Positions 12,734 to 37,511 of a stretch of DNA of 64,000 nt are shown here, piece by piece. Below the pieces are notes generated by a model, which saw only the letters and a list, made by a program, of their open reading frames with translations, was not told where the DNA came from and made no database searches. Position numbers and translations under genes: made by a program. Every line of letters begins with the position of its first letter. Position 1 is the first letter of the stretch. This stretch comes from Sporichthya brevicatena (lineage in GTDB: Bacteria > Actinomycetota > Actinomycetes > Sporichthyales > Sporichthyaceae), in NCBI RefSeq assembly GCF_039525035.1, contig NZ_BAAAHE010000008.1:136625-200624 (forward strand), read 5' to 3'.

Positions 12734-14208
12734 GACAGGGCGGGGATCCGGACCCGGAACGTCGCGCCCCGGCCGGGGGCGGAGTCGACGGTGACGTCGC
12801 CACCGTGCGCGGCGACGAGCGCGGCGACGATGGACAGACCGAGACCGGTTCCTCCCGTGCTCCGCGCACGGGAGGAGTCGGTCCGGTAGAAGCGCTCGAA
12901 GACCCGGTCCCGCTCCTCCTCGGAGAGCCCGGGCCCGGAGTCGGCGACCTCGAGGACCGCCCAGTGCCGGCCGTCGATCACCTCGGCGCCGACCCCGACC
13001 CGGACCGGGGTGCCGGGCGGGGTGTGGGTGCAGGCGTTGGAGACGAGGTTGTCCGCGATCTGCCGCAGCCGGCCCTCGTCGCCGATCACCCCGGGCGGCT
13101 CGTCGCCGTTGAGCATGCCGACCTCGATCGGGCGGTCCGGGTCCGCGGCGCGGGCCGCGTGGACGGCGTCGGTCGCGACCGTCACGAGATCGACCGGCTC
13201 CTGGCGCAGCGGCCGCTGCTGGTCGAGGCGGGCGAGCAGCAGGAGATCCTCGACGAGCAGGCCCATACGGGTCGCCTCGTCCTCGATCCGGCGCAGCAGC
13301 GAGGGCATCTGCTCCGGCCCGGCCGCCCCCTGGCGGTAGAGCTCGGCGAAGCCCCGGATCGACGTCAGCGGCGTCCGGAGCTCGTGGCTCGCGTCGGTGA
13401 CGAACTGCCGCATCCGCTTCTCCGACGTGCGCGCCTCGGCGGCTGCGCTCTCGCGCTCGCGGACCGCGGACTCGATCTGCGTGAGCATGCCGTTGACCGC
13501 GGCCGAGAGCTGGCCGACCTCGGTGCGGTGGGGGTGGTCGGGGACACGGCGGGAGAGGTCGCCGGCGGCGATCGCCAGCGCCGTGGTCTCGACCTCGCGG
13601 AGCGGGCGCAGGCTGCTGCGCACGATCGCGTACGCCAGCACCGCGACGAGGGTGAGCACGGAGAGCCCGACCGCGATCAGGATGCGCGTCAGCCGGGACA
13701 CGGTGATGTCGACCTCGTTGAGGCTGACGGCGACCATCAGGCTGCCCGTGCCGTCGGGCAGCGGGGTCAGCAGCGCGCGCCAGTCGGGTTGATTGCCGCC
13801 GAGGGCTTCGACGTCGAAGGGTGCCCCGGCCTTGGCCTCGGCCTCGGCCAGGCGGACCGGCTTCAGCCGGGGGGCCGCGCCGGGCGCCTCGAACTGGGCG
13901 TTCTCGCGGCGCAGCTCGTTGCCCTCGGCGTCCCAGGTGATGAGGAAGTACGGGTTGGGCAGGCGGGGCAACGTCAGCGCCGAGGTGGCGGGCGCCGGCA
14001 CCGGCTGGCTCATGTACGGCATCGCCGTGTTCGTGTAGAGCTCGAGCCGGTTGTCGAGCCGGTCGACGAGGTAGTCCCGGAGGACCGCGGTCGCGGTCGC
14101 GCCGGTGATGCCGACGGCCGCCGTGGTGAGGACCAGCAGCGCGGCCATCAGCTTGACCCGGAGCGGTACCTGCGCGGACAGGCCGCGCAGCCGGGCCCGG
14201 GGACTCAC
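12730..14208 (-). CDS. Sensor histidine kinase (OmpR-class partner, PhoR-like)
   Basis: Encodes 492 residues: membrane helix 1 (about 20-42), an extracytoplasmic sensor region to about 160, helix 2 (about 165-190), HAMP (about 190-245), the HisKA box SHELRTPLTSI (phospho-His about 275) and the HATPase boxes NLVSNACTHTP, DSGPGLSEEERD and GGTGLGLSI. The GTG at 14208 follows GGAGACGAG. It lies 70 bp after the response-regulator gene in the same operon. The regulator most resembles mycobacterial PhoP, so this would be PhoR-like, but the signal is unknown. It is a different system from SenX3 at 50 kb. Confidence 0.9.
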   Translation of the reverse strand: MSPRARLRGLSAQVPLRVKLMAALLVLTTAAVGITGATATAVLRDYLVDRLDNRLELYTNTAMPYMSQPVPAPATSALTLPRLPNPYFLITWDAEGNELRRENAQFEAPGAAPRLKPVRLAEAEAKAGAPFDVEALGGNQPDWRALLTPLPDGTGSLMVAVSLNEVDITVSRLTRILIAVGLSVLTLVAVLAYAIVRSSLRPLREVETTALAIAAGDLSRRVPDHPHRTEVGQLSAAVNGMLTQIESAVRERESAAAEARTSEKRMRQFVTDASHELRTPLTSIRGFAELYRQGAAGPEQMPSLLRRIEDEATRMGLLVEDLLLLARLDQQRPLRQEPVDLVTVATDAVHAARAADPDRPIEVGMLNGDEPPGVIGDEGRLRQIADNLVSNACTHTPPGTPVRVGVGAEVIDGRHWAVLEVADSGPGLSEEERDRVFERFYRTDSSRARSTGGTGLGLSIVAALVAAHGGDVTVDSAPGRGATFRVRIPALS

Positions 14209-35626: not shown

Positions 35627-35922
35627 TGTGCGGCGCGACCCCGGGCGGTCCGGCCCTGCCGGCCAACGTCGACGTCGGCAAGGAGGCGATCATCCAGGGG
35701 ATCGTCACCCGCGACGGCATCGGCGTCCCGAACGCCTACGTCCGGCTCCTCGACCGCACCGGTGAGTTCACCGCCGAGGTCCCGACCTCGGCGACCGGCC
35801 AGTTCCGCTTCTTCGCGGGACCGGGGGACTGGACCCTGCGCACCCTCGCCCCCGGGGCCTCCGTCGACCGCGCGGTCGTCGCCACCCGGGGCGAGATCGC
35901 GGAGGTCGAGGTCGTCCTCTAA
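35626..35922 (+). CDS. SseC-like protein (DUF1416)
   Basis: Encodes 98 residues that match the small DUF1416 family: N-terminal MCGATPGG, IIQGIVTRDG and VPNAYVRLLDRTGEFTAEVPTSATGQFRFFAGPGDWTLR. Its fold resembles a transthyretin-like or carboxypeptidase regulatory domain. In actinobacteria it is invariably encoded after the rhodanese gene (sseC2 after cysA2). ATG 35626 overlaps the previous stop. Likely accessory to sulfur transfer; exact role unknown. Confidence 0.88.
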   Translation: MCGATPGGPALPANVDVGKEAIIQGIVTRDGIGVPNAYVRLLDRTGEFTAEVPTSATGQFRFFAGPGDWTLRTLAPGASVDRAVVATRGEIAEVEVVL

Positions 35923-35937
35923 AACTCCCGGCTCTCC

Positions 35938-35998
35938 CACGAAAGCGCAGTTGCGTACGCGAAATCGCCAATCTTCCGTACGGGACTGCGCTTTCGTG
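35938..35998. repeat. Hairpin repeat family B, copy 1
   Basis: A 61-bp inverted repeat: 14-bp arms CACGAAAGCGCAGT / ACTGCGCTTTCGTG, then CGTACG on each side of a 17-nt loop. It shares 20 consecutive identical bases (35941-35960 with 37034-37053) and the right arm with copy 2 at 37031-37092, in the same orientation. The pair brackets the DUF559 gene. Confidence 0.9.
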
Positions 35999-36041
35999 CG
36001 TCCTCAGGTGGACGTGGGGTACGGGGGCGCGGGCGGCGGGT

Positions 36042-36941
36042 CTACGGGCGACGCCAACCGCGGCTGATGAGCGCGTCGCGGATGCGCTCGATCACGGTTG
36101 CCGGGCGGACCAGCAGGTCCATCTTCGTGACCTTGATCAGGATCCACCCGTGGACGCGGTAGAGCTCGTCGCGTTTGATGTCGCGACGCCACTGCCCCTC
36201 GTCGAGGTGGTGGTGATCCCCTTCGTACTCGATCGCGATCTTGAACTCGGCGAACTGCAGATCCGGTTCGGCGAACATCTCGCCGGCGTCGTCGAAGACG
36301 GGCTTGTTCACCAGCACCGGGCCGAGGAGGGCCGTGACGACGAGGAAGCGCAGCCGCGATTCCATCGGGGACTTCGACGCCGGATCGAGCAGCGGGAGCG
36401 CGGCGCGCGCGAGCTTGACGCCGCGGCGGCCGACTCCGGCTTCGACCGCCACCCGCAGGTCCGCGACACCGTTCTGGGCCCGACCTGCCAGTCCGTCACC
36501 CGCGATGACGAGGGAGAGCAGGTCGAGACGGGCGGCCAGGTCCAGGAACGTACGGCCCGGCGTCGTCACGCGCAGGCCGCGCAACCAACAGGAGTCGCCT
36601 TCGCCGAGAGTGAGAATGCGGTGGGCGACCACGCCCCCGATCCGCGGCTCGACGGGCTGCATCGTGCAGACGTGGATCAGCGGCTCGTCGGGCACCGGCA
36701 CCCGGTACAGCGACGCGGCCGTGTAGTGGCTGAACACCGCATCTCGGGGCAGCCCGGCGCGCAGCGCCCCGCATCGCTGCCACAGGTTGTCGGGCACGTC
36801 GCTGGGGACCCACAACCCTCGCGCGACGCGGCGATGCCGCCGTCGGTCCTCCAGGTGACGCCGCTTCATCCCGGCGTCGAGCGCCTCTTTCCGTCGGAGG
36901 GCCTCGACGGGTTCCGGTGCCGGTTCACGAGGGATCCACAT
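36042..36941 (-). CDS. DUF559 (Vsr/PD-(D/E)XK-like nuclease-fold) domain protein, AbiEi-like
   Basis: Encodes 299 residues. The N-terminal part (about 20-85) resembles the wing/HTH half of AbiEi-like antitoxin families (SHYTAASLYRVP). The C-terminal ~120 residues are DUF559: PMESRLRFLVV, EPDLQFAEFKIAIEYEGDHHH (the Asp and Glu are probable metal ligands) and RRDIKRDELYRVHGW. Such proteins are abundant and variable in actinobacteria. ATG 36941 is favoured over an upstream GTG. It is flanked on both sides by hairpin repeats of one family and lies between sseC and dsrE/FABP genes, suggesting a mobile insert. Activity not proven. Confidence 0.8.
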   Translation of the reverse strand: MWIPREPAPEPVEALRRKEALDAGMKRRHLEDRRRHRRVARGLWVPSDVPDNLWQRCGALRAGLPRDAVFSHYTAASLYRVPVPDEPLIHVCTMQPVEPRIGGVVAHRILTLGEGDSCWLRGLRVTTPGRTFLDLAARLDLLSLVIAGDGLAGRAQNGVADLRVAVEAGVGRRGVKLARAALPLLDPASKSPMESRLRFLVVTALLGPVLVNKPVFDDAGEMFAEPDLQFAEFKIAIEYEGDHHHLDEGQWRRDIKRDELYRVHGWILIKVTKMDLLVRPATVIERIRDALISRGWRRP

Positions 36942-37030
36942 GGCGCGGAAGCGTCGCCGATTTCTCCGTTGCCCGCTCGCCCCCACCCGCGATCTGTGGA
37001 TAACGGTGCGCCCACCCGTCCAGCGGTACC

Positions 37031-37092
37031 CGCGAAAGCGCAGTTGCGTACGCCGAATCCGACAAAATCGCGTACGGATGTGCGCTTTCGTG
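37031..37092. repeat. Hairpin repeat family B, copy 2
   Basis: CGAAAGCGCA / TGCGCTTTCG arms with internal CGTACG on both sides. Identical over 20 bp with copy 1 (35938-35998) and in the same orientation. It sits 90 bp beyond the DUF559 start and 15 bp before the dsrE stop. Confidence 0.88.
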
Positions 37093-37106
37093 GGGGAAGG
37101 GGCGGG

Positions 37107-37469
37107 TCAGTAGACGAGGGCCTGAGTGTCGTCGGCGCAGGACTCGGCGACGAAGACAGCGGCCCCGGCGATGCGGACACCGTCCAGCACGTCGTCGGGG
37201 CCGATGTCCCGTCGCGCCGCGCACTGGGTGCAGAGGGTGACGCGGCCGAGCTCCAGCACGGTCGCGAGCAGGGTCTCCAGCGGCTCGGAGTGGGGCAGGT
37301 CGAAGTCCGCGGCCTTGCCCGGGAGGGCGAACCACGAGCTCTCGCCGGTGAGCCAGAGCGAGACGTCGAGCCCCGAGGCGGCGGCGACGGAGGCGACGGT
37401 GAAGGCCTGGGCGCACCGTTCGGGGGCGTCCGCGCCCGCGGTGACCTTGACGACCAGGGAACGAGCCAT
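37107..37469 (-). CDS. DsrE-family sulfur-relay-like protein
   Basis: Encodes 120 residues. It has the DsrE/F-like alpha/beta fold: an N-terminal VVKVTAGADAPERCAQAF, then LDVSLWLTGESSWFALPG (about 38-55). A CTQCAARRDI motif near residue 82 gives cysteines that could carry sulfur. ATG 37469. Divergent from the nitrobindin gene and near the rhodanese/SseC pair, so a sulfur-transfer role is plausible but inferred. Confidence 0.78.
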   Translation of the reverse strand: MARSLVVKVTAGADAPERCAQAFTVASVAAASGLDVSLWLTGESSWFALPGKAADFDLPHSEPLETLLATVLELGRVTLCTQCAARRDIGPDDVLDGVRIAGAAVFVAESCADDTQALVY

Positions 37470-37511
37470 ACGGTCAACGTATCGAGCGGGCTTCGACCGT
37501 AGACTCGCGCG

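Follow-up and report, generated by a model that had tools for sequence, protein, structure and literature searches.

A nuclease gene with AbiEi-like and Vsr-like parts lies between paired palindromes whose arm sequence follows the protein

In Sporichthya brevicatena (genome G000), the sseC-like (DUF1416) and DsrE-like genes are separated by a gene for a predicted nuclease that lies between two palindromes, H1 and H2 (Table 1). Positions refer to the window, the whole 64,000-nucleotide stretch of contig NZ_BAAAHE010000008.1 that was analyzed. Each palindrome is ~61 bp long, and the two share an identical 21-nt run (CGAAAGCGCAGTTGCGTACGC), which bears out the observation in an earlier note, made from the sequence alone, that the gene stands between two similar hairpin repeats. 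That note also gave them the same right arm, which overstates the likeness, as the right arms are only similar (19 of 22 bases identical). The arms of H1 (22 nt) are 91% complementary and those of H2 (25 nt) 84% complementary over 37029-37094, and H2 lies ~45 bp upstream of the nuclease gene. No T-run follows either palindrome in the sequence, leaving the criterion for an intrinsic terminator (a GC stem plus a T-run) unmet; Rfam returned no match up to E 0.1 for 35850-37200, and inspection of the dyads in this genome revealed no GTAG/CGTC tag at their ends. No AbiEii (DUF1814) toxin gene stands beside the nuclease gene, whose neighbors in the window are DUF1416 and DsrE, and no known partner genes were found adjoining the cassette.

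Table 1. Features of the cassette and its neighbors (positions in the window)
Feature	Position	Strand	Description
DUF1416/sseC-like gene	35627..35922	+	Left neighbor of the cassette
Palindrome H1	35938..35998		Two inverted ~22-nt arms (CACGAAAGCGCAGnnnCGTACG), 17-nt spacer; 15 bp past the DUF1416 (sseC) stop
Nuclease gene	36042..36986	-	314 aa; N-terminal part AbiEi-like, C-terminal part a Vsr-like REase (MTES_1575/DUF559)
Nuclease domain	36057..36380	-	Residues ~203-310; invariant S206, E209, D242, H259, D269
AbiEi-like region	36528..36890	-	Residues 33-153, predicted DNA-binding part; PADLOC and Foldseek
Palindrome H2	37031..37092		Arms as in H1, 16-18-nt spacer; 14 bp past the DsrE stop
DsrE-like gene	37107..37470	-	Right neighbor of the cassette; in relatives without the cassette it converges with DUF1416

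Calling this a DUF559 gene, as the earlier note did, is loosely right in that MTES_1575 and DUF559 are both Vsr-like REase families, but MTES_1575 is the top Pfam match (E 1.6e-7, under the curated cut-off) and the DUF559 match is weak (E 0.03). The N-terminal part matches AbiEi models in PADLOC (E 8.4e-11). The AlphaFold model is confident (mean pLDDT 89.8), and its best solved-structure matches in Foldseek are AbiEi (6y8q; E 1.4e-4 for the AbiEi-like part) and, for the C-terminal domain, I-Bth0305I (PDB 3r3p; TM 0.81 by target length). By alignment and Foldseek the protein meets the description of a Vsr-like fold with conserved acidic residues and a histidine, the five residues named in Table 1 being invariant in 25 aligned family sequences, although their spatial overlay was unchecked. 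Because of this invariance the nuclease is probably active, in the absence of cleavage data. The gene product is not a Y1 HUH tyrosine transposase: Pfam gives only MTES_1575/DUF559 and AbiEi, and the fold is that of AbiEi joined to I-Bth0305I.

Searching the genome with the outer arms, as GAAAGCGCA and TGCGCTTTC separated by 20 to 50 nt, gave 16 occurrences and none when the pattern was reversed, so H1 and H2 are not products of chance. Copy counts here rest on patterns that require exact outer arms and miss diverged copies; with two one-mismatch copies added, the 16 become 18 palindromes that fall into two main types and one odd copy. A type 1 pair flanks the window gene (on contig C8) and a type 2 pair flanks its closest paralogue (on C44, 48% identical), while the next closest paralogue, on C20, has a third palindrome sequence on both sides. 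The direct orientation that the earlier note described holds for the window pair but not for the pair on C44, which is inverted, as judged from the loops. The remaining 14 of the 18 are solitary and scattered through the genome, and all 14 were observed 2-35 bp past a stop codon, nine of them between convergent genes, five between tandem genes, and none between divergent genes, with gene context assigned by a home-made codon-based gene caller. A further palindrome family, TGGAGATGTCATCTCCA-like, is present in G000 and its congener G001 (L042 5593-5656; L098 942-1020) and once adjoins a more distant DUF559 gene (C25).

Homologues of the nuclease were found in 47 of 60 related genomes, and 38 of the 65 family genes examined have a strong palindrome within 400 bp. 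Single strong palindromes also occurred in 64 of 1500 random windows and at 33 of 175 control genes, which shows that gene edges have a higher base rate of single hairpins than random windows do. The argument therefore rests on matched pairs, which were observed at 31 of the 65 family genes versus 0 of the 175 control genes. A pair in the relatives counted as matched when the palindrome on the opposite flank scored above all 300 control flanks; for control genes the threshold was an alignment score of at least 24, which 30 of the 31 family pairs also reach (the pair at G002_C215 scores 21). An independent set of named genomes (Jiangella, Curtobacterium, Cryobacterium, Arthrobacter, Leifsonia, Microbacterium, Promicromonospora, and others), found by a scan with a narrower family alignment since a more diverse one was unsuitable, had a palindrome at 55 and a matched pair at 42 of 72 family genes. 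Some relatedness exists among the genes of each set, and the pairs are thus not fully independent events, but arm sequences vary between groups. The linkage of hairpins to family genes on which the earlier note had staked its proposal was thus strong in S. brevicatena, in its relatives, and in the independent set.

In the protein tree, palindromes accompany 29 of 35 genes of the main clade (with an IEYDGxHH-like motif) and 4 of 15 genes of the outer clades. The genes are chromosomal, and homologues are nearly absent from the phage and plasmid collections searched; a scan of the contig collection with a single protein recovered no relatives. The single pattern match in G014 was set aside as part of a larger, 116-nt palindrome with no family gene beside it. 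At G002:C215 (L105 3124-3195), five perfect 14-bp tandem repeats (CGGCGGGAACTGGG) abut the palindrome of the window-locus gene.

Arm similarity climbs with protein identity, from a median score of 5 below 40% identity to 8 at 50-60%, 13 at 60-80%, and 19 above 80%, a relation that was matched by none of 999 permutations in a Mantel test, and paralogues at ~45% identity in one genome have different arms. It is the protein and not the genome that arm sequence tracks. The GAAAGCGCA type has 12-16 copies in each of G000-G003 (12 in G003) and none in G004, which instead holds about 28 copies of the CTGCCTGTCCCAC type, absent from G000-G003 and flanking G004's own gene on C88. Although G003 and G004 are members of one genus, each has the palindrome type that fits its resident gene, and solitary copies of a type, few in number (4-30 per type), were observed only in genomes with the matching gene. 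Large families of palindromes ending in TGATCAT also exist, in G022 (about 160 copies at 162 places) and in G043, G044, G059, G009, and G033; the sole family gene found in G022 (C25:205860) has a different palindrome, TTTCTCGGGC..., at its flanks and not one of the TGATCAT-ended family.

Palindromes also vary between closely related genomes. At five sites examined, presence or absence of a solitary copy differs between the congeners G000 and G001. These comparisons demonstrated neither clean insertions nor target-site duplications, and the empty sites were not taken for clean insertions because two of them in G001, matching C44:130325 and C20:18632, retain remnants of the arms, making loss as likely as gain there. 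The cassette idea would weaken, by the earlier note, if all relatives had the gene at the sseC-DsrE locus, and they do not: G000-G003 have palindrome, gene, and palindrome there, while G004 lacks the gene and has one solitary palindrome of its own type, and in outgroups, G022 among them, both the gene and palindromes of these types are missing. The pyk and gltD genes have about 97 bp between them in G000 and G001 and are closely spaced in G022 and G043, but G004 carries a cassette between the two; in G003 a cassette lies beside gltD, with the pyk side outside the examined locus. To judge from the assemblies compared, whole cassettes come and go at these two loci. The protein tree places the window gene nearer the gene on C147 of G003, which has similar arms, than the G003 gene at the same locus, with weak support (88/55).

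Other differences were recorded at palindrome sites. A ~2.5-kb insert in G000 (C44:130319-132899; L036 4320-6900), containing a MarR-like gene, an IS3-like orfA, and another ORF, is bounded by two type 2 palindromes, where G002:C255 (L106) has one. Two intergenic spots are each occupied in both G000 and G001, but by palindromes whose sequences differ and are unrelated (L043 5680-5748 and L156 near 13100-13200; L036 10297-10342 and L097 2022-2089), and a ~308-bp stretch beside a solitary type 1 palindrome in G001 (L137 3153-3460) is absent from G000:C29 (L049 5313).

Covariation between the arms bears on whether the palindrome acts as a duplex or as a hairpin. It is uninformative at the outer 9-13 nt, which the search pattern fixes. 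Degenerate positions of the two arms vary independently in the G004 and type 2 sets, with pairing at the shuffled expectation, and in the type 1 set, which mixes two genera, a few positions (12, 17, and 20) covary. Because variable arm positions mostly do not covary, duplex half-sites are favored over a hairpin, and the pattern suggests, without binding data, that each palindrome is a pair of inverted half-sites bound by protein on duplex DNA and not a hairpin kept by selection. Recognition at the RNA level was weighed on the same evidence, with covariation absent from the G004 and type 2 sets and confined to the few type 1 positions from mixed genera.

We think it likely, if well short of certain, that the cassette is a REPtron-like system built on an unrelated, non-HUH enzyme, with binding, cutting, and dispersal driven by cutting all inferred. 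A chromosomal nuclease joining an AbiEi-like part to an EDxHD/Vsr-type domain would recognize a gene-specific dyad, composed of two inverted ~22-nt half-sites and ~60 bp overall, which it would bind on duplex DNA, probably as a dimer. The nuclease's own gene would sit between two cognate dyads. Through cutting or nicking at dyads, solitary dyads would be gained, lost, and dispersed to sites just past stop codons, as would, at times, the whole dyad-gene-dyad cassette. A dimeric nuclease that reads its own dyad is inferred because the protein joins AbiEi and I-Bth0305I folds and the palindrome sets two ~22-nt arms in ~60 bp. The matched pairs establish that gene and palindrome belong together; that the enzyme binds, cuts, mobilizes, or processes palindromes is an inference. 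Counting against a REPtron-like reading are the site comparisons without clean insertions or target-site duplications, the 6 of 35 main-clade and 11 of 15 outer-clade genes without a palindrome, and the small number of solitary copies.

Other roles for the dyads have to be considered. AbiEi regulates its own expression through 23-bp inverted repeats (PMC7319586), and the protein might be an AbiEi-like autorepressor whose nuclease domain has decayed or is accessory, with the dyads as operators of its own gene and, elsewhere, of a regulon. The placement of H2 upstream of the gene agrees with this, as does the missing arm covariation, which suits duplex operators, but solitary dyads past stop codons and never between divergent genes, a dyad also beyond the gene's 3' end, and invariant active-site residues do not, and we regard regulation as unlikely without dismissing it. 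Positions right past stop codons, often between convergent genes, would suit strong hairpins that terminate transcription of the neighboring genes and resemble one another through gene conversion, with the nuclease gene a bystander, and terminators could also accommodate different palindrome families at one intergenic spot in two species. Bystander status is hard to square with pairs confined to family genes in the control comparison (31/65 versus 0/175) and with a palindrome type that tracks the nuclease protein; nor would terminators be expected to lack a T-run (H1 and H2), to have arms mostly without covariation, or to stand on the gene's 5' side too, and we hold this account to be very unlikely.

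The match of the catalytic domain to the homing endonuclease I-Bth0305I raises the possibility of a homing-type selfish gene, whose nuclease would cut solitary dyads as vacant targets into which repair copies the dyad-gene-dyad unit, recombination between the dyads later leaving a solitary one. Empty cassette sites exist, and the sseC-DsrE locus, with one solitary dyad and no gene in G004 and dyad-gene-dyad in G000-G003, has the arrangement such a cycle would leave; the G004 dyad is nevertheless of a different type from those of G000-G003, the gene does not lie midway within a split target, family members are chromosomal and barely found on phages or plasmids, and new solitary dyads are not explained by homing alone. 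We give homing only a slim chance. Conflict systems commonly contain AbiEi-like and Vsr-like domains, so that a defense or genome-marking nuclease controlled by chromosomal dyads, for example titrated by them or guided by them against invading DNA, can be imagined, but with no known partner genes beside the cassette and dyad numbers that are low and variable, it is barely credible.

For actinobacteria, we lean toward a separate class of palindrome-dispersing systems, in which AbiEi-EDxHD nucleases with private duplex dyads, evolved independently of RAYT/REP, seed solitary dyads at gene 3' ends. The open-access literature on DUF559, Vsr, or MTES_1575 proteins with REP-like palindromes and on actinobacterial REPs left the association undescribed (subscription papers and preprints were outside the scope), and the same literature yielded no described function or repeat association for DUF559/MTES_1575. 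If REPtron-like action by these nucleases is correct, it would provide a function for a widespread family of unknown nucleases, name a likely agent behind intergenic palindrome families in actinobacteria, and mean that systems pairing an enzyme with palindromes have arisen on more than one occasion, around unrelated catalysts. As the dyad of each protein is known from sequence, specificity is directly testable in vitro, and the family is a natural source of DNA-binding nucleases with long targets.

REPtrons combine a RAYT/TnpA_REP gene with REP palindromes (PMC3733652, PMC8266576), and the likeness extends to a chromosomal nuclease gene with palindromes on both sides, solitary copies of the matching type scattered between genes, and several gene-specific types per genome. 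The window cassette is not a member, because its enzyme does not belong to the HUH transposases and its palindromes were seen to have no GTAG/CGTC tag: a Vsr/EDxHD REase fold with an AbiEi-like part replaces the Y1 HUH enzyme of REPtrons, and each palindrome spans ~60 bp and contains two ~22-nt half-sites whose variable positions mostly lack covariation. In TIRtrons, or TIRYTs, a gene for a tyrosine transposase is bracketed by terminal inverted repeats drawn from repeat families (PMC3733652); the window cassette likewise has its gene between repeats belonging to families, but the enzyme differs and each end is itself a palindrome. DUF559/MTES_1575 (PF04480, PF18741) is the family of the C-terminal domain in the window protein and its relatives. 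I-Bth0305I shares the fold of that catalytic domain and forms a dimer on its target, which is nearly 60 bp long (PMC3943268), comparable to the ~60-bp dyad, but is a phage homing endonuclease with an unrelated N-terminal part and a target that does not flank its own gene on both sides. The AbiEi antitoxin lacks a nuclease domain, is paired with the AbiEii toxin, and has its repeats in its own promoter, whereas in N-terminal fold, and in the ~23-bp inverted repeats that it binds (PMC7319586) beside the ~22-nt arms described here, it resembles the window protein and its palindromes.
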